From: Mesorhizobium tianshanense
GTDB lineage: Bacteria; Pseudomonadota; Alphaproteobacteria; Rhizobiales; Rhizobiaceae
Assembly (NCBI RefSeq): GCF_007830515.1
Contig: NZ_VLKT01000041.1
Span: forward strand, 1-64,000
DNA: 64,000 bases
Direction: 5' to 3'
Part shown: positions 5,990 to 56,242 of the stretch, piece by piece
How the letters are laid out: each line of letters opens with the position of its first letter
Position numbering within the stretch: the first letter of the stretch is position 1
Translations under genes and position numbers: made by a program
The notes under the pieces: generated by a model
Seen by the model: the letters and a program-made list of their open reading frames with translations, nothing else
The model's database searches: none
Told to the model about the DNA's origin: nothing

Positions 5990-6990
5990 CGTCCTGTCTC
6001 CATTCGAACGATGGTCTTCAGGCCGCTGCCCGCGCCCACGATCAGGCGCTGGTAGGCGGCGGGAATCTCGTCGATCGCGATCTCTTCGGCCACGAAGCGC
6101 GACAGCGCGGGCGCGAGATCACCAAGCATCGCGACGGCCGGCGCAAGCTCGTCGGCAAAGGCGTGGCAGCCGACCAGCGCGATCTCGCGCTCGACCAGCA
6201 GGTTGGGGTCGAGGTCGAGGCGGCCATGCGAAATGCCGACCAGCGCCAGCGTGCCGCCGCCGGCCAGAAGATCGAGCAGCCGCGCCATCACCGCCACGTT
6301 TCCCGTCGCGTCGATGGCATGGCGCAGGATGGGATCGCCGGGCAGGGCGCCCAGGTCGACAATGGTCGCGCCTGTAACCTCGGCCACAAGACCCGCACGC
6401 GCCGCATTGCGGTCGGCGACGAGGACCGGTCTCTCGCCGGACCGCGACAGGATGAGCGCAGCCAGCCCGCCGATCGGGCCGCAGCCGGCGACAAGCACCG
6501 GCGCCCCGGCCGGCGCCGAAAGTCGCCGCACTGCGTGCAGGGCGACCGCCAGCGGCTCCGCCATGGCGGCGATTGCGGGATCGAGCGCTGGGTCGTGGCG
6601 CAGGAGCAGCCGCGCCGGCAGCTCCGTCTCTTCCGCGAAGCCGCCGTCGCAGACCTCGCCCACAAAGCCCAGCCTGGCACAGACATTGTGCAGGCCGGCC
6701 CGGCAGGCAGGACATTCGCTGCACCAGAAACGCGAATCGGCGACGACCCGGTCTCCGATGGCCAACTGGGACACCCCGCCCCCCACGGCGGTCACTTCGC
6801 CGGCGAACTCGTGCCCGGCGACACTCGGCGCGCGGCTGATCCACTGACCGGTGCGGAAGTTGTGGAGGTCGGAGCCGCAGATGCCGGCCGCCGTCACCCT
6901 GAGCCGCACCCAGTCAGGCGCCGGTTCGCCAGGAGATGGCACATCCTCAACCCGCAGATCGCCCGCCGCATGGAGTCTGGCCGCCTTCAT
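5986..6990 (-). CDS. Zinc-dependent alcohol dehydrogenase (MDR family)
   Basis: This 334-aa medium-chain dehydrogenase carries catalytic-zinc motifs (GICGSDLHNF and GHEFAGE), the four-cysteine structural zinc lobe CSECPACRAGLHNVC, and a Rossmann region (LVAGCGPIGGLAALI). Such enzymes oxidise secondary alcohols with NAD(P)+. It lies between an HpsN-like dehydrogenase and the GntR gene, and an SDR is at the far end of the cluster. Known 2,3-dihydroxypropane-1-sulfonate (DHPS) loci pair HpsN with accessory dehydrogenases (HpsO, HpsP) that interconvert the substrate enantiomers at C2, so this gene may fill one such role. I cannot tell which of the two it would be. Confidence 0.8.
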   Translation of the reverse strand: MKAARLHAAGDLRVEDVPSPGEPAPDWVRLRVTAAGICGSDLHNFRTGQWISRAPSVAGHEFAGEVTAVGGGVSQLAIGDRVVADSRFWCSECPACRAGLHNVCARLGFVGEVCDGGFAEETELPARLLLRHDPALDPAIAAMAEPLAVALHAVRRLSAPAGAPVLVAGCGPIGGLAALILSRSGERPVLVADRNAARAGLVAEVTGATIVDLGALPGDPILRHAIDATGNVAVMARLLDLLAGGGTLALVGISHGRLDLDPNLLVEREIALVGCHAFADELAPAVAMLGDLAPALSRFVAEEIAIDEIPAAYQRLIVGAGSGLKTIVRMETGR

Positions 6991-6996
6991 CGTCGG

Positions 6997-8319
6997 CTAC
7001 CGCACCAGATATTGGTCGCGCACGTCGGACACAGCGTGTTCGTGCGAGGAGAAGCCTTCGTAACGGGCAAGCGTACGCGCATGGCGCGCGAATTCCGGAT
7101 AGGCCGCGGCCGTCACGTAGCCGATGGAAGAGCGCTTGACGAAATCCGTGACCGAGAGCGGCCCGCAGGTACGCGCCCAGCGGCTGGTCGGCAGGACGGC
7201 GTTAGGACCCAGCCCGAAATTGCCGATCGAGACCGGCGTGTGCGGCCCCATCAGGATCTCGGCGGCTTCGGTGATCTGGCCAAGGTGCGCGAAGGGATCG
7301 GTGGAGAGGATCTCCAGATGCTCCGGTGCGTAGTCGTTGATGAAGCGGTAGCTCTCCTCGATCGAGCCCGTCAGCACGATGCCGCCACAGGCGCCGGTCA
7401 GCACCGCGGTAGAGAACGCTACCCGCTGCTCGCTCATACGCGCCCAGTGCTCGGGCAATGCCGCCAGCGCCTCCTCAGCCACGCGGCGGCTGTGGGTCAC
7501 CAGATAGGCCGATGAGTCCGGCCCGTGCTCCGCCTCGATGAGGAGGTCGAGCGCGGCCAGCCCGCCATGCACGCTGTCGTCGGCGAGGATGATCGCTTCG
7601 GACGGGCCGGCGGGGAGGCCTGGATCGATCACTCCGGCAAGCAGCCGCTTGGCCGCAACGACCCAGGGGCTGCCTGGACCGACGATCTTGAGCGCGGGCT
7701 TGACCGTCTCCGTGCCGTAGGCGACCGCGGCGACCGCCTGCGCGCCGCCGCATTTGTAGACCGTTTCGACGCCGGCGAGGCGCGCCGCGACCAGTGTCGC
7801 TGCGTCCACCGAACCGTCGGGCGCCGGCGGCGTGATGATGGCGAGCTCCGGCACGCCCGCCACCACGGCGGGCACCGCGGTCATCATCGTGACCGAAGGG
7901 AACGCCCCCTTGCCGCGCGGGACATAGAGCGCCACCGAGCGGATCGGCGTGAAGCGGTCCCCGGCATAGGCGCCGGGCCGCATTTCCTTGAGCCACATGG
8001 CTTCCGGTTTCTGCTCTTCGTGGAAGTGCCGGATGTTATCGATGCCGAAGCGAATGGCCGCGACCACGTCCTCGTCCACCATGCCGAAGGCGGCGTCGAA
8101 CTCGGGGGGGCTGACTTTGAGCCGCGAGGCATCGAGATCTGCCTTGTCCAGATCACGGGCGAAGCGGACGAGCGCGGCGTCGCCTTCCGTTCGGACCGCC
8201 TCGATGATCGGTGCGGCCTTCTCCATAAAGCCGGAGAGATCCGTCTCGGAGCGCCGCATCAATGCCGCGCGACCGGCAGCATCGAGCTGGCTCAAGTCAT
8301 GGAACGATACGTTTGGCAT
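6997..8319 (-). CDS. hpsN: HpsN-like sulfopropanediol 3-dehydrogenase (HisD superfamily)
   Basis: The protein (440 aa from the ATG preceded by GGAAGGGG) belongs to the histidinol dehydrogenase superfamily: YVPRGKGAFPSVTMMTAVPA, GPGSPWVVAAKRLLAG, GPSEAIILADD, HGPDSSAYLVTHS, NDYAPEHLEI. No other histidine biosynthesis genes are nearby, and the neighbours are an ABC importer, other alcohol dehydrogenases and a GntR repressor. This context fits HpsN, which performs two successive NAD+-dependent oxidations of (R)-2,3-dihydroxypropane-1-sulfonate to sulfolactate. The superfamily is certain. The substrate is inferred from context, and another polyol cannot be excluded. No sulfolactate sulfo-lyase (suyAB) is in the window. 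Confidence 0.75.
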   Translation of the reverse strand: MPNVSFHDLSQLDAAGRAALMRRSETDLSGFMEKAAPIIEAVRTEGDAALVRFARDLDKADLDASRLKVSPPEFDAAFGMVDEDVVAAIRFGIDNIRHFHEEQKPEAMWLKEMRPGAYAGDRFTPIRSVALYVPRGKGAFPSVTMMTAVPAVVAGVPELAIITPPAPDGSVDAATLVAARLAGVETVYKCGGAQAVAAVAYGTETVKPALKIVGPGSPWVVAAKRLLAGVIDPGLPAGPSEAIILADDSVHGGLAALDLLIEAEHGPDSSAYLVTHSRRVAEEALAALPEHWARMSEQRVAFSTAVLTGACGGIVLTGSIEESYRFINDYAPEHLEILSTDPFAHLGQITEAAEILMGPHTPVSIGNFGLGPNAVLPTSRWARTCGPLSVTDFVKRSSIGYVTAAAYPEFARHARTLARYEGFSSHEHAVSDVRDQYLVR

Positions 8320-29233: not shown

Positions 29234-29259
29234 GGAACATTGTCGATAGCCGCGACGTT
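29234..29259 (+). promoter_or_regulatory. EcfG-type promoter
   Basis: GGAAC - 17 bases - CGTT, an exact match to the alphaproteobacterial general-stress sigma factor consensus, 37 bp upstream of the ATG at 29296. Confidence 0.7.
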
Positions 29260-38273: not shown

Positions 38274-38299
38274 GGAACAATCGATCACCCCTGCGCGTT
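38274..38299 (+). promoter_or_regulatory. EcfG-type promoter for the first Ku gene
   Basis: GGAAC - 17 bases - CGTT, exact match, 31 bp before the Ku start codon at 38331. Confidence 0.7.
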
Positions 38300-38330
38300 C
38301 GACTGTTTTGCACCTTCCCGGGGATCCTTG

Positions 38331-39179
38331 ATGGCGCCGCGTCCTTTCTGGAAAGGCTATTTGAAGCTCTCGCTCGTGACCTGTCCGGTCGCAATGACGC
38401 CCGCTAGCACCGAGAGCGAAAAGGTTCGCTTCCATACGCTCAATCGCAAGAGCGGGCATCGCGTCGTCAGCCAATATGTCGATGCCGTCAGCGGCAAGCC
38501 CGTTGCTGAACATGACGAGGTGAAGGGATATCAGCGCGGCGAGGACGAATACGTCCTCCTCGAGGATGATGAGCTCGACGCGGTCGCGCTGGAGAGCACG
38601 CGTACCATCGACATCGACATGTTCGTCGATGCCGACAGCATCGGCTGGATCTGGTACGACAAGCCCCACTATCTCACCCCGGACGATCCGGTCGGGGAGG
38701 AGGCATTCTCGGTTATTCGCGACGCCATGCAGAAGACAGGGACAGTCGGAATATCGCGACTGGTCATGTACCGCCGCGAGCGCGCCGTCATGCTCGAGCC
38801 GCGGGGCAAGGGCATCGTGCTGTGGACACTGCGCTATGGCGACGAGATTCGCGATCCCGAGGACTATTTCGGCAAGATCGACGATACCAAACCCGACCCG
38901 AAAATGATGAATATGGTCTCGACCTTGATCGATGAGCGAACCAGGCAATGGGATCCAGGCATGACCGGAGATCCCGTCCAGGCACGGCTGCTGGAGATCA
39001 TTGCCTTGAAAAAGAAGGGCAGGAAGCGTCCAGCCAGGGCGAGGGCCAAGGCCGAGCAGCCGCCCAGCAACGTCATCAATATCATGGAGGCGCTGCGCAA
39101 GAGCATCAACTCGGAGGCTGGAAAGCGAAAAAATAGGCGCCTGGAAGCGGCCGGGTCGGGGACAAAGGCAACGCAATGA
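38331..39179 (+). CDS. ku: Ku protein, NHEJ end-binding (first copy)
   Basis: A 282-aa bacterial Ku homologue (FWKGYLKLSLVTCPVAMTPA, EKVRFHTLNRKSGHRV, DVVxG-like KGYQRGEDEYVLLEDDEL) with a basic C-terminal tail (KKKGRKRPARARAKAEQ) like those that recruit the ligase. Ku binds double-strand break ends for non-homologous end joining. I start at ATG 38331, giving the conserved MAPRPFWKGYL. The stop overlaps the ligase start (ATGA). A second Ku is convergent, 1.1 kb away. Confidence 0.92.
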   Translation: MAPRPFWKGYLKLSLVTCPVAMTPASTESEKVRFHTLNRKSGHRVVSQYVDAVSGKPVAEHDEVKGYQRGEDEYVLLEDDELDAVALESTRTIDIDMFVDADSIGWIWYDKPHYLTPDDPVGEEAFSVIRDAMQKTGTVGISRLVMYRRERAVMLEPRGKGIVLWTLRYGDEIRDPEDYFGKIDDTKPDPKMMNMVSTLIDERTRQWDPGMTGDPVQARLLEIIALKKKGRKRPARARAKAEQPPSNVINIMEALRKSINSEAGKRKNRRLEAAGSGTKATQ

Positions 39180-40218
39180 AAGTCATTCCCTGCGATCCTG
39201 CTTTCGACAACATGGCGCTGCTTCGCGAAGGCTTCCTCCTGCCGCTCGATACGCCGCCGATGGAAGCCAGGGCGGCCGACGCGATTCCCGAAGGCGACGA
39301 GTGGCAATATGAGCGCAAATGGGACGGCTTTCGCTGCCTGGCGTTCGGCAGGACGACGCGGTGGAGCTGCGCGCAAAATCGGGCAAGCCGCTCGGACGGT
39401 ATTTTCCCGAACTCGTCGCGACATTGAAGGAACTGCCATCGCCCTGCTTTATCGTCGACGGCGAAATCGTCGTCTCGCTCGATGGCAAGCTGTCATTCGA
39501 CGCCCTCCAGATGCGGCTTCATCCCGCCGAGAGCAGGATCGGCAAGCTGTCTGCGGAAACCCCGGCGCACATCGTCCTCTTCGACATGCTCTGCGACCAG
39601 CACGGAACCGTCCTGTTGGCCCGGACACTGAAAGAACGGCGAGCGGCCCTCGAGACGTTCGTCGCTTCGGCAAACCGCAGGAACATCATGCTCTCGCACT
39701 GTACGCGCGACGTGAAGGAAGCCCGCTCCTGGCTAGGCGACGCTGGACATGGGGCGACGGACGGCGTCGTCGCCAAGCGGCTGGACGATCCATACCAGCC
39801 GGGCGTGCGCGCAATGGTGAAGGTGAAGCGGTTGCGGTCGGCCGATTGCGTGGTCGGGCGGCTTTCGCTATCTCAGCAACAGCCGGCAGGTCGGCTCACT
39901 GTTGCTGGGCCTCTATAACGATGCCGGCAAGCTCGATCACGTCGGCTTCACCTCGACCATCGCCAAGGATGACAGGGGCGAGCTTACCCGCAAACTCGAA
40001 GCGATGCGCAAACCGCCGGGCTTCACCGGAAAAGCACCGGGTGGGCCAGCCGCTGGAGCACCGAGCGCAGTGGCGAATGGGAGCCGGTTCGGCCCGAATT
40101 GGTGGTCGAAGTGCGGTTCGATCATGTCACCGGCGATCGTTTCCGGCATGGCACCAAGTTCCTGCGCTGGCGGCCGGACAAGGCCCCGGAACAATGCACG
40201 TTCGAGCAGATCGCCTAG
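39176..40218 (+). pseudogene. ATP-dependent DNA ligase (LigC/LigD type), multiply frameshifted
   Basis: All parts of an ATP-dependent ligase are visible: adenylation motif I in YERKWDGFRCLAF (KWDG lysine), VDGEIVV, TDGVVAKRLDDPYQPG, and an OB domain (GGFRYLSNSRQVGSLLLGLY, ELVVEVRFDHVTGDRFRH). They lie in different frames. Shifts occur near 39345, 39860 and 40040, so three indels break the gene. It is fused by ATGA overlap to Ku. If the sequence is right, this strand-joining partner is lost. Confidence 0.85.
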
Positions 40219-40313
40219 AAAGATGGCGGTCAGGCGGAAACTCGGCGTCGCAGAAATGCGGTTAAAACAAATAGATAGTTGCGTTTCTTGCGGTAGGTCT
40301 CAATCGCCATCTG

Positions 40314-41183
40314 TCAGCCGGCCTTCCGGCGCGCCCCAGTCTCCTTCGCCTTTGCGCGGCGCGCCGGCTTTGACTTTACCGGGGGCTTTCTTGTCGAAGG
40401 CGGCTTGCCGCCAACGCCGGCACTTTGGCGCAGCGCTTCCATAAGATCGACGACCTTCTCCCGCTTGGGCTGCTTCGGAATTGCGATCTTCCTGCCTTCG
40501 AGCTTTGCCTTTACAAGCTCGGCAAGCGCCGTCTCATAGCGGTCGTCGAATTTGGTTGGATCGAACTTGCCTTTCTTGGTGTTGATGATGTGTTCGGCCA
40601 GTTCGAGCATCTCGCCCTTGATCTTCAGGTCCGGGACGTCGTCGAAGGCCTCGTCCGCCGAGCGCACTTCGTAGTCGAAGTTCAGCGTCGTCGCGACCAG
40701 CCCTTCGTCATAAGCCCGAATGAGCAGGGTGCGGACACGCCGGAACAGGACGGCCTGGGCGATCGCGGCGACTTTCTTCCTGCGCATGCCTTCGCGGATC
40801 AGCCCAAACGCTTCTTGCGCATGTTTGTCCGGCGGGGCGAGGTAATACGGCTTGTCGAAATACACGTCGTCGACCTCCGAACAGCCGATGAAGGCCGAGA
40901 CCGACAGCGTCTTGTCGCTCTCGGGGACAGCGTCTGCGACCTCGTCGGGTTCTAGCATGACGTAGTCACCCGAGCTGATCTCATAGCCTTTGACCTGATC
41001 GTCCTTCTCGACGGGTTTGCCGGTATCGCTGTCGACGAATGCGCGATGCACCCTATGTCCCGTGGCGCGGTTTATCGTGTGGAAGGCGATCCGCTCGGAG
41101 GTCGAAGCTGCGGTATAGAGCGCCACCGGACAGCCAAGCTCGCCAATCTTCAGGAAGCCCTTCCAATTTGCTCTCGGCGCCAA
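40314..41183 (-). CDS. ku: Ku protein, NHEJ end-binding (second copy)
   Basis: A 289-aa Ku homologue (ANWKGFLKIGELGCPVALYT, RIAFHTINRATGHRV, VKGYEISSGDYVMLEPDE), with a lysine/arginine-rich C-terminus (PVKSKPARRAKAKE). It differs clearly from the first copy, so the two are old paralogues or separately acquired. Rhizobia often carry several ku genes. Its own EcfG-type promoter is 43 bp upstream. No intact ligase gene is nearby. Confidence 0.92.
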   Translation of the reverse strand: MAPRANWKGFLKIGELGCPVALYTAASTSERIAFHTINRATGHRVHRAFVDSDTGKPVEKDDQVKGYEISSGDYVMLEPDEVADAVPESDKTLSVSAFIGCSEVDDVYFDKPYYLAPPDKHAQEAFGLIREGMRRKKVAAIAQAVLFRRVRTLLIRAYDEGLVATTLNFDYEVRSADEAFDDVPDLKIKGEMLELAEHIINTKKGKFDPTKFDDRYETALAELVKAKLEGRKIAIPKQPKREKVVDLMEALRQSAGVGGKPPSTRKPPVKSKPARRAKAKETGARRKAG

Positions 41184-41225
41184 AAGACAACATCCTCACG
41201 GTCACAAGCGTTGCACTGGAAATGC

Positions 41226-41251
41226 AACGTGGCGGCGCCAGGATTAGTTCC
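41226..41251 (-). promoter_or_regulatory. EcfG-type promoter for the second Ku gene
   Basis: On the minus strand GGAAC - 17 bases - CGTT, exact match, ending 42 bp before ATG 41183. Confidence 0.7.
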
Positions 41252-41424: not shown

Positions 41425-43899
41425 CTAACGGGTAGCGCGCAACGCAGGTCGCCGGGTCGAGGCTGCACTCTCATGCCGGCCGATCTTGCTGGCATATCGC
41501 TCGATGGGGTAAGGCCGGCCGACCAGATAGCCCTGCACCGCATTGCAATCTTCTGCACGCAGGAAATCAAGTTGCGCCGATGTTTCCACGCCTTCCGCGA
41601 CGATATTCATGGAGAGCCCGCGTCCCAATCCGACGATGGCGCGGATGATGGCGCCGGATTGAGGTGTGTTCTTGAGCTTGGCGACGAAGGATTGATCGAT
41701 CTTGATCTTATCGAACGGGAAGGATTGCAGGTAGGAAAGGGACGAGTAACCGGTGCCAAAATCGTCCATGGCTATTTTCACGCCAAGCGTTTTCAGCCGC
41801 CTGAGGATCGAACTCGCGCGTGAAAAGTCGTCAAACAGCACGCCCTCGGTAATTTCGAGCTCCAGCCGGCCAGGATTAAGGCCGGTCTCGAGCAGGATTG
41901 TGTGCACCAAAGCCGGAAGATTGCCGTGACGGAACTGGACCGGCGAAAGATTGACCGCGATCTGGATGGGATTCGCCCAGGATGCAGCTTCCCGACAGGC
42001 CTCACGCAGAATCCATTCGCCGATCGGAATGATCAATCCGCTTTCTTCAGCCAGCGGGATGAACTTGGATGGTGAAACCATGCCATGCACTGCATGTCGC
42101 CAGCGAGCCAAGGCCTCAAAGCCGATGATCTCGCCGGAGACCAGGGCCTGTGGCTGATAGTACAACATCAGCTCCTTGCGAAGCATCGCCGACCGGAGAT
42201 CCTGCTGAAGGACGCGTCGTTCACGCAACCGCCTGTCCATATCGGCTTCGAATACGCGAAACACGCCGCGACCCGCAGCCTTTGCACGATAAAGCGCGGC
42301 GTCCGCATTGCTGAGGAGCGTGGCCGCGGTCGTGCCGTCGTTTGGGAAGAAAGCAATCCCGATGCTCAGGCCGACGCGCAGATTATGACCCTCGATGTCG
42401 AAATCTTCCGCCACCGTTTCCAGGAGACGATCGGCAAGCGCCACCGCGGTCGCGGGCTGCGGGTCGTCGGTGACAATGAGGGTGAATTCGTCGCCGCCAA
42501 TGCGGGCCAGGAATGCGCCGTTCGCCGCCGCGGCAAGACGGTTCGACATTTTGCGCAGAAGTTCGTCCCCGGCCGAGTGACCAAACACGTCGTTGATATC
42601 CTTGAACCCGTCCAGGTCGAGACACAGCACCGCGAAGCGCTCGCTGTTCGATGACGCCCGCTCGATGGTGAAATTCAAACGCTCCGCAAAGGCGGGACGG
42701 TTTGGAAGATCGGTAAGCGCGTCGTGGTTTGCCAGATGGGCAATGCGCGCCGCGGCGCGCTTGCGCTCGGTTATGTCTTCGGCAACGCCGAGCAGGTATT
42801 TGTTTTTTCCGTCGTCGCTATCGACTGCCAGTCTCTTCATCATGAGGTCGCGCATTCCATTGGCGCGCGTGCGGACAGTCTCCTCCTCCGCGATCTGCAG
42901 ACGATCGGCGCGCAACACTTGCTGGTCGCGAATGAAGAACGAATCCGCCTCATCCCTTGGAAAGAGGTCGTAATCCGTCTTGCCGATCAGTTCCTCGCGG
43001 GGAATGCCGAGCAATTCCTCGCCCGCGCGGTTCATCAGGATGTAGCTGTGATTTCGAGCTTCCTTGACGAAAAGCATGGCGGGGACGTTTTCAATGATCG
43101 TGTCGAGAAATTCGCGGGTGCGGCGCAGTTCGTCATTTGCCCGCTTACGTTCAGTCACATCGACGACCGCCACCATTGCCGCCGCGCGGCCTTCGTACTG
43201 GAACCTCTGAGAGTAGACGATGACGTCGACAAGGCTTCCGTCCACCTTCAGGTGACGCCATGTCTGGCCAGTGTCATAACTGTCCCTTTTCGTTCCCGCC
43301 ATCTTGCGGACTGCGTCGGCGTCCTCAGCCGGCCTGATGTCGAGCAATGTCATCGCCAGGAACTGCTCTCGAGTGTAGCCGTAACTCTCGACCGCAGCAT
43401 CGTTGACAGCCAGAAACCGCAAGCTGCCCCTCTCGTACACCCACATCGGGATAGGATTGCTGTCGAATAGAAGTCGCGACGAGGCCTCACGCTGTTTCAG
43501 TTCGGTGATGTCGGACAAAGAACCGATGACGAGGCGGGTGCCGTTGGCAAGGCAGGCCCGTTTCTTTCGGGTCAGGATGGTGCGAATCTCTCCGTGATTG
43601 CCGGGGATGAACTCCTCGTTTTCGTTGATGTCGTCTGTCTCCAGCACCAGCCGGTCGATCCGCCGAAAGACGTCTGCAATCTCCTTTGGCAGGAAGTCGT
43701 GATCGGTCTTGCCGACCAGGTGCTCGTGTCGATGCCCCATGAGCTTGCACATGCTTTGATTCAGCACGACAAAACGGTGCTGGTCGTCCTTGATGAATAT
43801 CGGATGTGGCACAGCGTCGAGCACACGCCGCAGAGCATCAAGATCTTCTGCCGGAAATGTCGCGGCCGGCGTTTCAGCCATAGATTTTGAAGGTGGCAT
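41425..43899 (-). CDS. PAS-PAS-PAS-GGDEF-EAL cyclic-di-GMP enzyme
   Basis: An 824-aa signalling protein with three PAS sensor domains (about 25-145, 150-270, 280-395), a GGDEF diguanylate cyclase domain with intact RIGGDEF, and an EAL phosphodiesterase domain with intact GFEALARW, DDFGTGYSS and AEGVET. No membrane segment is visible, so it is cytosolic. Both catalytic signatures look complete, and the balance between making and breaking cyclic-di-GMP cannot be told. The start at 43899 has GGGAGG six bases upstream. Confidence 0.9.
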   Translation of the reverse strand: MPPSKSMAETPAATFPAEDLDALRRVLDAVPHPIFIKDDQHRFVVLNQSMCKLMGHRHEHLVGKTDHDFLPKEIADVFRRIDRLVLETDDINENEEFIPGNHGEIRTILTRKKRACLANGTRLVIGSLSDITELKQREASSRLLFDSNPIPMWVYERGSLRFLAVNDAAVESYGYTREQFLAMTLLDIRPAEDADAVRKMAGTKRDSYDTGQTWRHLKVDGSLVDVIVYSQRFQYEGRAAAMVAVVDVTERKRANDELRRTREFLDTIIENVPAMLFVKEARNHSYILMNRAGEELLGIPREELIGKTDYDLFPRDEADSFFIRDQQVLRADRLQIAEEETVRTRANGMRDLMMKRLAVDSDDGKNKYLLGVAEDITERKRAAARIAHLANHDALTDLPNRPAFAERLNFTIERASSNSERFAVLCLDLDGFKDINDVFGHSAGDELLRKMSNRLAAAANGAFLARIGGDEFTLIVTDDPQPATAVALADRLLETVAEDFDIEGHNLRVGLSIGIAFFPNDGTTAATLLSNADAALYRAKAAGRGVFRVFEADMDRRLRERRVLQQDLRSAMLRKELMLYYQPQALVSGEIIGFEALARWRHAVHGMVSPSKFIPLAEESGLIIPIGEWILREACREAASWANPIQIAVNLSPVQFRHGNLPALVHTILLETGLNPGRLELEITEGVLFDDFSRASSILRRLKTLGVKIAMDDFGTGYSSLSYLQSFPFDKIKIDQSFVAKLKNTPQSGAIIRAIVGLGRGLSMNIVAEGVETSAQLDFLRAEDCNAVQGYLVGRPYPIERYASKIGRHESAASTRRPALRATR

Positions 43900-44590
43900 G
43901 TCTGAGCCTCCCGGCGGCAATCGTTGCAGCAAGGTCTTTAGAAATCCTTCAGGGGCCGTCGAGACTTGGATGTATTCTTCACGAAGGACCTTGGTGCCGT
44001 TTCTTGCCTGAAGCTTCTTGGATTGGACTTATGGCGACTGGTCCGTAGCCCTGTCGGCAGGACTGGCGCCCGCCGGACGTTGCGGTGACTGCCACGCTGA
44101 ACGGTCCTCACAGCACTGAACCGACACAGAGCAACACCAACACCGTCGAGCAAGATCCCGCGGTCGACAAGGATCCTCAGCCCAAGACGACCACGGGCGG
44201 CGATCAGCCCGGTACGACGCCGGCGCAATGAAGGATCGGCCGGCCGGCCCGAGTCTCCCGGATTCGATTGGACAGGGGCGCCGGCTCTCAGCTGATGGTA
44301 GCTGTACCGATTTCGAATGAACGCATTGGAGAACCGGCCTCTTGACGAGGCTTTGCCGAATGCAGCCTAGGTCTGCGGCGGCACGGCGTCGTAATCATAG
44401 CGATGTCCGCTTGGGACGAACCACACGGAGAGGGTTCTGGTCGCTTGACCGTAATTCATGCTTTGGATGGCGGTTGACGGCATTTCCCAACACTCGGTTC
44501 CGTCTCGTGCGGGAAATGGAAGTGCTGATCCGGCCGGCTTCGCGCCTCCAAGGCCTTGCCGCCGCCGGCCACCTTCACCAATTAGGGTTG
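43900..44590. other. 690-bp gap with a possible gene tail
   Basis: No complete gene is supportable. On the plus strand about 44070-44231 reads as the Thr/Gln/Pro-rich C-terminus of a small exported protein (ending KTTTGGDQPGTTPAQ), but no start or signal peptide is in frame, so it may be a remnant. The region must include the promoters of the GGDEF-EAL gene and of alkB. Confidence 0.35.
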
Positions 44591-45223: not shown

Positions 45224-45657
45224 CCAGGATCGAGACCGGCTCCTGCTTTTGCGGTTGCATAAGGGCTGAGATGCATGGTGACCCGTTCTGGATTTGCTCC
45301 GATCACGATGACGATTGCCGCAAGGCCATAGGGAGCCCGCTGACCGTCTGGGTCGGCTATCGACCGGCCCAATTCAGATTGCTGACCGGCACGCCGAAAA
45401 CGTTCTCAAGGACCCCAGGCGTGCTCCGCACCTTCTGCGCCGATTGCGGGACATCCATAGCCTATCTCGACCAGGGGCTTCGCGAAGAACTCTATGTGAC
45501 GATCGGTTTCTTCGACCACCCCGAACGCTTTGCGCCGCAGGCTCATGCCTATTGGGACATGAAGCTGCCGTGGGTGGAATTTCACGACGATCTACCGCGT
45601 GTCGAAAAATACTCAAGACGCCGCGATCCGGCGGTCGGAAATCCAGCCGATCGGTAA
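45220..45657 (+). CDS. GFA/CENP-V-domain zinc protein
   Basis: A 145-aa protein of the glutathione-dependent formaldehyde-activating (GFA) superfamily: SCFCGCIRAEM, CSDHDDDCRKAIGSP and FCADCGTSI supply the zinc cysteines. The second site is CSDHDDDC rather than the usual CHCxxC. Many GFA-domain proteins have no proven formaldehyde role. Since AlkB releases formaldehyde from methylated bases, coupling to a formaldehyde-handling fold is suggestive, but this is inference. Confidence 0.8.
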   Translation: MTRIETGSCFCGCIRAEMHGDPFWICSDHDDDCRKAIGSPLTVWVGYRPAQFRLLTGTPKTFSRTPGVLRTFCADCGTSIAYLDQGLREELYVTIGFFDHPERFAPQAHAYWDMKLPWVEFHDDLPRVEKYSRRRDPAVGNPADR

Positions 45658-45685
45658 CCGGCAACCCGCCGCCGATGGAACCCGG

Positions 45686-46210
45686 ATGGCCCTGGCTGAA
45701 TTGAGTTGCGATCAATCAGCTCGTAATCCAAACGCCAGCGGTCAGGGTTTGCTGGTGTCTCTCATCCCGGTTTGGCAGGACATTGCGGCACGCCTGCTTC
45801 TGACCGTGCTCGCCGGTTCATTGATCGGCCTCGACCGGGAGGCGCGGACACGCGGCAGGCCTCAGGACGACAATCCTGGTCGGGCTGGCCGCCGCGATGC
45901 GATGACGAAGGCCACTATTCTGCTGGAGTTTGTCGGCACTGATCCGGATTCCTTTGCCCGTATGGACGTTTTGCGCTTTCCCCTGGGCGTGTTGACAGGC
46001 GTCGGCTTCATCGGCGGTGGCGCCATGCTTCGCCGGGGCAGTCTTGTCAGCGGCGTTACCACGGCAGCGACCTTGTGGATGATGACGATGATCGGATTGG
46101 CGTTCGGCGGTGGCCAATATGCCCTGGGCGCGGCCGGGACAGCGCTGACGCTGATCATTCTGCTCGTGTTGAAATGGGCGCAACTCGAAACGGGTATCAT
46201 CGCTTCTTGA
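45686..46210 (+). CDS. MgtC/SapB-family membrane protein with locally shifted frame
   Basis: The frame encodes an MgtC-like protein (AARLLLTVLAGSLIGLDREA, FPLGVLTGVGFIGGGAMLRR, VTTAATLWMMTMIGLAFGGG) of about 174 aa. The family-defining segment is absent from this frame. At about 45850-45903 the neighbouring frame reads AGLRTTILVGLAAAMR, exactly what the family has there. Two opposite indels flank it. The start is uncertain. It follows the GFA gene by 28 bp. Confidence 0.7.
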   Translation: MALAELSCDQSARNPNASGQGLLVSLIPVWQDIAARLLLTVLAGSLIGLDREARTRGRPQDDNPGRAGRRDAMTKATILLEFVGTDPDSFARMDVLRFPLGVLTGVGFIGGGAMLRRGSLVSGVTTAATLWMMTMIGLAFGGGQYALGAAGTALTLIILLVLKWAQLETGIIAS

Positions 46211-54866: not shown

Positions 54867-55409
54867 ATGTGCGTGTCGTCCGTTTCCGGAAAACCTGAAC
54901 CGGAGCGGAGAGCGACGAACGCGGCAGGCCTCGATGTCTTCGACAAGACGCTTCAGACAACCCATACCTGGCTCGATGAGCTGATGGATGAGCTCGGCCC
55001 TGATCGGCAGCTCTCCTGGAAGGTGCTCTCGGTCGTGCTGCAGATGCTGCGTGATCGGCTGCCTCTGGGACTTGCCATGCATCTCGGTGCCGAATTGCCG
55101 CTTCTGGTGCGGGGCGCCTACTACGATCAATTCCAGCCGGCAAAGCAGCCAGGCGACTCGGATCGGGACGAATTTGTCGCCGAAGTCGCGGACCGCTTGT
55201 CCGACACGCGGCCCATCGACGCTCATGATGCGATCTGTTTGGTCTTTGCGACGCTGTCGCGGCATGTCTCGCGCGGTCAGGTCGCGAAGATCCAGGCCAC
55301 GTTGCCCGAAAAGCTGCGCGCGATGTGGCGCGCGGCTGAAGAACGGGTCGTCGTCCCGCCCGATCGAGGCGCAGCCGGAATGGGCCGGACGCCAAGGTGC
55401 GTGACGTGA
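54867..55409 (+). CDS. DUF2267 protein
   Basis: A 180-aa DUF2267 protein (GLDVFDKTLQTTHTWLDELM, SWKVLSVVLQMLRDRLPLGL, VRGAYYDQFQPAKQP). The family has two related helical repeats and is often found in stress islands of rhizobia; function unknown. The last ten residues read into the broken CBS gene, so the C-terminus may not be the original one. The TTG start seven codons upstream is less likely. Confidence 0.82.
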   Translation: MCVSSVSGKPEPERRATNAAGLDVFDKTLQTTHTWLDELMDELGPDRQLSWKVLSVVLQMLRDRLPLGLAMHLGAELPLLVRGAYYDQFQPAKQPGDSDRDEFVAEVADRLSDTRPIDAHDAICLVFATLSRHVSRGQVAKIQATLPEKLRAMWRAAEERVVVPPDRGAAGMGRTPRCVT

Positions 55410-55633
55410 TGTCGGCGGAAGTCAAATACTGTTTCTCCGATCAGGATGTCGATGAGGTTTCGCGCAACATGGGCAATATCCAGGTTCGCCGTCTGCCGGT
55501 CGTCGATCGCGACAAGCGCCTGGTCGGGATCCTGTCGCTCGGTGACGTTGCCATGACGGGCGACGACGTTACCGCCGGCGAAGCCCTGAGCGCTATCTCG
55601 CAACCCGGCGGTGCTCACAACCAGACGGCCTGA
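55379..55633 (+). pseudogene. CBS-domain protein lacking its first domain
   Basis: The frame encodes only the second CBS motif of a two-CBS protein (DAKVRDVMSAEVKYCFSDQD, VRRLPVVDRDKRLVGILSLG). The first about 70 residues, and with them half of the nucleotide-binding pair, are missing, and the frame starts inside the end of the DUF2267 gene. A deletion has fused the two genes. A GTG at 55397 could still start a short product. Confidence 0.7.
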
Positions 55634-55810
55634 CGGCGTTTCTCGCTCGCGCAGGGAAGGGTCACCTGGCCTGTTCGATGGCTCGCCAGCCGGTGCCGGC
55701 CGCAGGCGGGCGAGTTCTTCATATTGCCCGTCCCGGCCTTGTCGGCGCGTCACGGCGCGATAATTTTTTCCCAGGGCGTGGGCGCATTGACTTATTGAAA
55801 GGAGCCGACC

Positions 55811-56242
55811 ATGAAACACCAGACACTCGACCAACTGCAGACAATCGCGGAGGTCAAGCTCTCGGCGACATACCCGACCATGACTCGAAGGCAGCGGATC
55901 GAGCGTTGGGCAGAGCTTCTCGAACAAAATCCACAGCGCTGCCTCGGAGCGCTGACAGGCACCGAATATCTCGCTCCCGAAGCCCGTGCCGTGGCGCGTG
56001 GCGCGGGGTCGCCGATCACCGTTGCCTATGAGGACCCGGTGCTACGCGCCGAGGGCTTGAAAGACGACACCTACGGGGAGGCGAAGCGCTTCTTCGAGGT
56101 GAGTGACTGGCAGTTGCACGACATCGTCTGCCATTGCCATGTCGGTGCGACGATGCAAGCGCGATGGGCTGCCGCCAGGGTTCGCCGGACAATCAACGGG
56201 AACAGATTCCTCGCTTGGCTAAGGGCGGCGCTAGCGCATTGA
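55811..56242 (+). CDS. Hypothetical protein, 143 aa
   Basis: A soluble, helix-rich protein (QLQTIAEVKLSATYPTMTRR, RIERWAELLEQNPQRCLGAL, LHDIVCHCHVGATMQARW). I do not recognise a named domain. AAAGGAGCC precedes the ATG. It lies between the CBS remnant and htrA in the same direction and looks like another member of the stress region. Confidence 0.65.
   Translation: MKHQTLDQLQTIAEVKLSATYPTMTRRQRIERWAELLEQNPQRCLGALTGTEYLAPEARAVARGAGSPITVAYEDPVLRAEGLKDDTYGEAKRFFEVSDWQLHDIVCHCHVGATMQARWAAARVRRTINGNRFLAWLRAALAH

Follow-up and report, generated by a model that had tools for sequence, protein, structure and literature searches.

The 64,000-nucleotide stretch of Mesorhizobium tianshanense DNA analyzed here (positions 1 to 64,000 of contig NZ_VLKT01000041.1, assembly GCF_007830515.1; hereafter, the window) encodes two Ku proteins, denoted KuA and KuB, whose convergent genes are each preceded by an exact stress-type promoter motif and enclose the debris of two ligase genes. 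The explanation that we favor, and consider reasonably probable, is that this locus derives by degeneration from an end-joining cassette that is widespread in Alphaproteobacteria and has the layout EcfG>KuA ... LigD<KuB<EcfG, and that ligation is now provided in trans, the likeliest source being a stand-alone LigD encoded on contig C49 of the same genome. Under this explanation, a KuA/KuB heterodimer would be produced when the general stress response is on and would load on double-strand ends; in the history of the lineage, the cassette LigD would have been deleted and an accessory LigC-like gene broken, and ligation would have passed to a LigD acting in trans, most likely the C49 protein, which has an EcfG-type site upstream.

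The Ku pair and its promoter sites

The retained components of the locus are the following:

38274-38299, plus strand: EcfG-type site GGAAC-N17-CGTT before KuA, exact, beginning 57 bp before the KuA start
38331-39179, plus strand: KuA gene, 282 amino acids, ortholog of the second Ku of the Sinorhizobium meliloti pSymB pair
41183-40314, minus strand: KuB gene, 289 amino acids with a basic tail at the C terminus; its ortholog in the pSymB pair of S. meliloti is the first Ku
41226-41251, minus strand: EcfG-type site GGAAC-N17-CGTT before KuB, exact, beginning 68 bp before the KuB start

Both gene products match Pfam family PF02735 (E-values of 1.7e-43 for KuA and 2.7e-43 for KuB) and score above the 150-bit cut-off of the NCBIfam bacterial Ku model TIGR02772 (Ku_bact; 293 and 281 bits, respectively), in agreement with the preliminary description of the locus, which had recognized two Ku genes facing each other. 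The two proteins are 36% identical to each other, and in a midpoint-rooted tree of sequences from 22 chosen loci and three proteins from this genome, they belong to two separate Ku clades (22 sequences each, with support of 100/100 and 100/99). Each clade holds one of the two pSymB Ku proteins, so that KuA and KuB, one member per clade, have the composition of a Ku3/Ku4-type pair; we take the pSymB pair to be Ku3 and Ku4. Dupuy et al. are said to have claimed in 2019 that Ku3 and Ku4 form a heterodimer, and, by analogy, KuA and KuB probably do so as well. The one observation on our side that bears on dimerization is linkage: in a survey of layouts at loci that contain KuA, with one genome per species (the best 80 of 201 relatives), both Ku genes are present at 73 of the 80 loci and KuB was not seen at 7.

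The order KuA>(LigC>)LigD<KuB< is found at 60 of the 73 loci with both Ku genes, 7 have the tandem Rhizobium layout with LigDs, and 3 show other orders. No LigD match was found at three of the 73, namely L066 (genome G097, discussed below), L087 from Plastoroseomonas hellenica, and L126 from a metagenome-assembled genome. At L087, the convergent KuA and KuB genes are separated by about 270 bp (positions 6789-7062) that contain no LigD match, possibly an independent occurrence of the same loss. The intact KuA>LigD<KuB< cassettes of Rhizobiales and other Alphaproteobacteria contain members of the same two Ku clades in the same orientation and, where examined for promoters, also have EcfG-type sites; in contrast, LigD is deleted in the locus analyzed here and the LigC-like gene found in Mesorhizobium is broken.

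The motif GGAAC-N17-CGTT, which we take to be the EcfG motif of the RpoE2/EcfG literature, occurs four times in the window, compared with 0.52 sites expected from shuffling, and the chance of encountering it on a given strand of a random 100-bp stretch is 0.0025. Conservation among relatives bears out the exact sites that the preliminary description had noted at both Ku genes: the site precedes KuA in all 16 Mesorhizobium cassettes that show this gene (with a spacer of 16 in L052; the cassette L053 has no visible KuA) and KuB in 17 of 17, the present cassette being included in both counts. In the three tandem KuB>KuA> loci of the same genus (L057-L059), no exact site was found before KuA, and the one found 65-68 bp before KuB has the looser form GGAAC-N19-TT. 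The recurring motif at the cassettes suggests that KuA and KuB are under EcfG control. The genome yields two PhyR-type matches above the cut-off of a model that also passed in 2 of 14 control genomes. The two other exact GGAAC-N17-CGTT sites in the window are located at 29234 (plus strand) and 50100 (minus strand).

Loss of the local ligases

The interval between the two Ku genes contains the following remnants:

39176-40218, plus strand: pseudogene of a LigC-like ATP-dependent ligase with three one-base indels
39176-39233 (end approximate), plus strand: probable remainder of the N-terminal part of a CYP152-like P450 gene, joined to the beginning of LigC
40226-40278, no strand assigned: copy of a short dispersed repeat, located at the junction left by the deletion of LigD; 7 other copies in the genome
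40310-40278, minus strand: remnant of the cassette LigD, 11 codons in all including the start codon (MAIETYRKKRN), the rest being deleted

The cassette LigD has been lost. In 14 relatives, LigD lies on the 3' side of KuB as an open frame of 848-850 amino acids, and this LigD of the KuB operon is the likely expected partner of the Ku proteins; here, 11 codons are left, so that the locus has no Ku gene with an adjacent LigD containing the LIG, POL and PE domains. The other copies of the repeat at the junction are 84-92% identical over 37-55 bases, and two of the copies match each other over about 63 bp. In the nearest relatives compared, genomes G074 and G097 (93-94% identity), the cassette is likewise devoid of both ligases but retains both Ku genes and both promoter sites, with the KuA and KuB stop codons about 80 bp apart. 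These two genomes and the present one form a single clade with 100% support in the tree of KuA plus KuB. The scar in G074 and G097, however, consists of about 16 LigD codons without the repeat and thus differs from the 11 codons plus repeat found here. Given these differing scars, a single deletion shared by the three genomes could not be established, and either one deletion that was later reshaped or two deletions would fit.

The preliminary description had mentioned only the ligase on the plus strand, downstream of KuA, as broken by three frameshifts, and concluded that, if the damage was real, the local ligase was lost; the frameshifts are indeed present in the assembled sequence (one base missing after 39345, one extra base at 39856, and one missing after 40047), and the conclusion probably holds for this gene, but the deletion of the minus-strand LigD and the P450 relic were overlooked. 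An intact relative of the broken ligase passes model NF006078 (458 bits, cut-off 296) and scores below the cut-off of the model for ligases of non-homologous end joining (NHEJ), TIGR02779 (167 bits, cut-off 227.75), so this enzyme was probably an accessory one rather than the main partner of Ku. LigC presumably is the appropriate name for the family defined by NF006078/PRK08224. In the layout survey, a LigC-like gene is present at 9 of the 80 loci, in the Mesorhizobium clade. The LigC core forms a single frame in 12 of 17 Mesorhizobium cassettes (with the match starting at codon 8-10 in L040, L041, L053 and L055), whereas it is frame-broken in 3 (this genome, L049 and L054) and absent from 2 (L051 and L052).

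The reading frame of LigC probably starts on the P450 relic, because about 19 codons at its beginning are similar to those that open a longer frame at the same place in L054, L055 and L073. In L054 and L055, the two loci scanned for this match, the longer frame is above the cut-off of the Pfam p450 model and below that of the CYP152 model NF053744. The CYP152-like P450 sequence between KuA and LigC extends over 1974-3244 in L054, approximately 6161-7431 in L055 (on the reverse strand) and 6841-7323 in L073; it is spread over two frames in L054 and L055, and its first codons seem to persist as the LigC start in other strains. The coupling of KuA and the ligase by ATGA that was originally proposed is present as an overlap at 39176-39179 but is not ancestral: in 16 of 16 aligned relatives, KuA has 265-268 amino acids, compared with 282 here, and its gene terminates upstream of the LigC start codon. 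Both the overlap and the greater length of KuA here result from additional A residues at its stop codon that are unique to this genome in the aligned set.

With the indels disregarded, the LigC pseudogene contains no stop codon except the natural one, and its ratio of nonsynonymous to synonymous substitution rates (dN/dS; pairwise, with gapped codons excluded) relative to intact relatives is 0.08-0.14, within the 0.08-0.17 range of pairs of intact relatives. Relaxed selection was therefore rejected for this gene, there being no missense excess, which weakens the case for an old pseudogene and suggests that the indels are either very recent mutations or sequencing errors. If these indels, along with the additional A residues at the stop codon of KuA, were errors of sequencing or assembly, an intact LigC could serve the Ku pair, an alternative that we regard as possible but somewhat unlikely. 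The undisturbed frame and dN/dS of LigC are in its favor, as is the concentration of four length changes of one or two bases within about 0.9 kb. Against it, over some 6,000-6,500 codons elsewhere in the window, 16 of 25 reference frames of G074 and 17 of 21 of G097 are matched in one frame (frames with a GC content at third codon positions below 0.68 or shorter than 100 amino acids, and matches below 75% identity, being excluded); the remaining 9 and 4 are partial, split or interrupted by a stop, which amounts to some background damage but not to three indels per kilobase. Moreover, L049 and L054 have independently broken copies of LigC, and neither sister genome has the gene. The deletion of LigD, for its part, stands regardless of the status of the LigC indels.

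The two Ku genes are under purifying selection that is slightly weaker than in intact relatives: in comparisons with G074 and G097, dN/dS is 0.16 and 0.12 for KuA, and 0.14 in both cases for KuB. KuA departs from columns conserved in more than 90% of sequences at 2 positions (99 sequences) and KuB at none (93 sequences; matches below 52% identity excluded from both comparisons), and this conservation supports continued function of the pair. A joint change in the tails of both Ku proteins after the ligase loss (E for D in the motif M-[D/E]-ALR) was considered and rejected, given that neither position departs from a column with over 90% conservation. The gist of the preliminary description, namely that end-binding proteins have been kept behind stress-type promoters whereas local ligation has been lost, accordingly holds at the level of promoter motifs, with both Ku genes and both sites in place, LigC broken and LigD deleted.

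Two further explanations of the lone Ku genes can be weighed against these data. The pair might be vestigial, that is, incapable of end joining for want of LigD and merely not yet decayed; the loss of both local ligases, the slightly elevated dN/dS of the Ku genes and damage to nearby genes, such as the shortening of an MgtC-like gene at 46179, are compatible with such a state. It nevertheless appears quite unlikely because both frames, the C-terminal tails and the promoter sites are kept in three genomes separated by 0.16-0.21 synonymous substitutions per site, with dN/dS of 0.09-0.16, and each of the three encodes a full-length stand-alone LigD. Alternatively, KuA and KuB could act independently of any ligase, as protectors or blockers of DNA ends under stress. 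The absence of a remaining cassette ligase would be in line with such a role, and genomes with Ku only do exist, albeit the state is reported to be rare, with ~90% of the cases in Firmicutes (PMC7719229). The persistence of both Ku tails, the reported involvement of the C-terminal region of bacterial Ku in the interaction with LigD (PMC12784961) and the full LigDs encoded in this genome make a ligase-independent role most improbable.

Candidate partner ligases elsewhere in the genome

The genome contains six matches to ligase domains: LigD2 on C19, the stand-alone LigD on C49, an ATP-dependent ligase with a longer frame (573 amino acids) on C28, the fragment in the window, and small matches on C11 and C4. 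Two of these are full LigDs: the LigD2 of C19, which is linked to Ku2, and the C49 protein (P0001). Both have PE, LIG and POL domains above cut-off, so that, at the genome level, the two components of NHEJ, Ku and a three-domain LigD, are present. The P0001 gene follows a DUF892 gene, and an EcfG-type site is located ahead of the DUF892 gene, 771 bp upstream of the start of LigD. We compared 31 loci of the stand-alone LigD (the best-matching ones and those from the identity comparison), and in all 31, an EcfG-type site with a spacer of 16-17 is present within 1.5 kb upstream, compared with a chance of about 0.07 per 1.5 kb, the loci being related; 7 of the 31, this genome not among them, have a second site within 110 bp of the LigD start.

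Of 146 genomes of the genus, 121 have a full-length P0001 ortholog, the present genome among them (a hand count among the matches listed, at E <= 1e-200; the loci were examined for 30 matches). All three genomes that have lost the cassette LigD (this genome, G074 and G097) have the full-length protein. The 14 Mesorhizobium genomes with a retained cassette LigD differ in their P0001: 6 have it at full length (G032, G037, G083, G088, G090 and G098), 6 have only its POL end (G014, G034, G040, G087, G143 and G145), and 2 have a broken copy (G054 and G141); thus, none of the 17 cassette genomes lacks both LigDs. The six POL-end remnants start from residue ~496-509, are 87-90% identical to P0001, and contain an internal stop in 2 cases. 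Over all 146 genomes, with G012 counted among the cassette genomes and all others, even those with different loci of the same Ku type, in the comparison group, the complementary loss has P = 8e-5, a value on which we do not lean because the test ignores relatedness.

P0001 is 53-54% identical to the cassette LigDs and 45-46% identical to the LigD2-type proteins of relatives. LigD2 could itself be the main present partner of the Ku pair, given that both Ku2 and LigD2 are complete on C19, as a single Ku beside its LigD. We deem this unlikely on the following grounds: a cassette-type LigD from an Aminobacter plasmid is closer to the stand-alone LigD (49% identity) than to LigD2 (41%); no GGAAC-N16/17-CGTT site was found in the 16 kb around LigD2 (L060); and the Ku2-LigD2 and Ku3/Ku4-LigD4 pathways of S. 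meliloti are presented as separate (PMC12844678). Most likely, the stand-alone LigD of C49 would be the present partner of the Ku pair.

Several observations weigh against the proposed takeover by the C49 LigD. Within the clade of 17 cassette genomes, the complementary pattern of LigD loss does not depart significantly from chance expectation in Fisher's test (P = 0.21), and the three genomes that lost the cassette LigD form one clade, so that the pattern reflects a small number of independent events, which cluster on the tree. Co-transcription of the DUF892 gene and LigD in this genome is a prediction, since the site is 771 bp away, before the DUF892 gene, and the site near the LigD start is absent. 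The LigD2 on C19, with its own Ku, is another possible partner. The dN/dS of the Ku genes is at or slightly above the values for pairs of intact relatives (0.04-0.13), and these estimates span the whole time since the split from the sister genomes, which is longer than the time since ligase loss. Finally, at three of the 80 surveyed loci (L102, L122 and L125), KuA occurs without KuB, with more than 5 kb available on both sides, so the missing KuB is not explained by a contig end.

The surroundings of the cassette are common to this genome, G074, G097 and G037. The PAS-GGDEF-EAL gene beside KuB (41425-43932, minus strand) is also aligned there in G074 and G097, although not in the G037 alignment. 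An MgtC-family gene (45599-46210, plus strand) has a deletion of ~325-335 bp at 46178-46180 relative to G037 and G074, and in the region 55051-56239, comparison with the G074 and G097 frames reveals a possible shift of frame around 55266 and a stop codon in frame within 55727-56239.

Relation to known end-joining systems

Multiple copies of these genes have been described in rhizobia: S. meliloti has four ku and five ligD copies, and Rhizobium etli has four ku copies, two of them adjacent (PMC10932983). In S. meliloti, the Ku2-LigD2 and Ku3/Ku4-LigD4 pathways are reported to be induced by RpoE2 (PMC12844678). By analogy, the locus analyzed here appears to be a case of the known stress-type end joining by Ku3/Ku4, resembling Ku3/Ku4-LigD4 but with both local ligases lost. 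Its Ku proteins are orthologous to the S. meliloti pair, with 61% and 66% identity, and a GGAAC-N17-GGTT site is located ~60 bp upstream of the first gene of the pSymB pair. The S. meliloti genes are in tandem, whereas those studied here point toward each other, have separate promoter sites, and adjoin the debris of two ligases. No match to three LigD queries was found within the 22 kb examined around the pSymB pair and, with Ku3/Ku4 reported to work with LigD4, there is a precedent for a ligase encoded elsewhere. The earlier contention that the Ku proteins must work with such a ligase is thus backed by this precedent and by the other full LigDs, with the qualification that the particular partner is predicted rather than observed.

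The canonical Ku2-LigD2 system is intact on C19 of the same genome and, unlike the convergent pair, has a single Ku gene adjacent to LigD. The broken ligase belongs to the same ligase-domain-only family, NF006078/PRK08224, as the mycobacterial LigC; the latter is reported to function in base excision repair and had earlier been proposed as a back-up for LigD (PMC5663958), whereas the gene described here was located behind a Ku gene.

Among the titles and abstract openings listed in our searches of open-licence literature, we found no account of the decay of this cassette in Mesorhizobium. To our knowledge, the pairing of Ku and LigD copies in bacteria that have several of each has been little tested. 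We propose, as a tentative idea that may well prove wrong, that a single stress-induced Ku heterodimer can work with either of two LigDs that are ~54% identical to each other, one from the cassette and one stand-alone, and that loss or truncation of either ligase has occurred only in genomes retaining the other. In the three-genome clade, the Ku pair has outlived both local ligases and retains conserved stress-type sites, and in 8 of the 14 genomes that keep the cassette LigD, the stand-alone LigD has lost its ligase domain or is broken, which provides a set of strains for testing Ku-LigD pairing. If the proposal is correct, Mesorhizobium would represent a natural experiment indicating that the recognition between Ku and LigD is not bound to operon partners.

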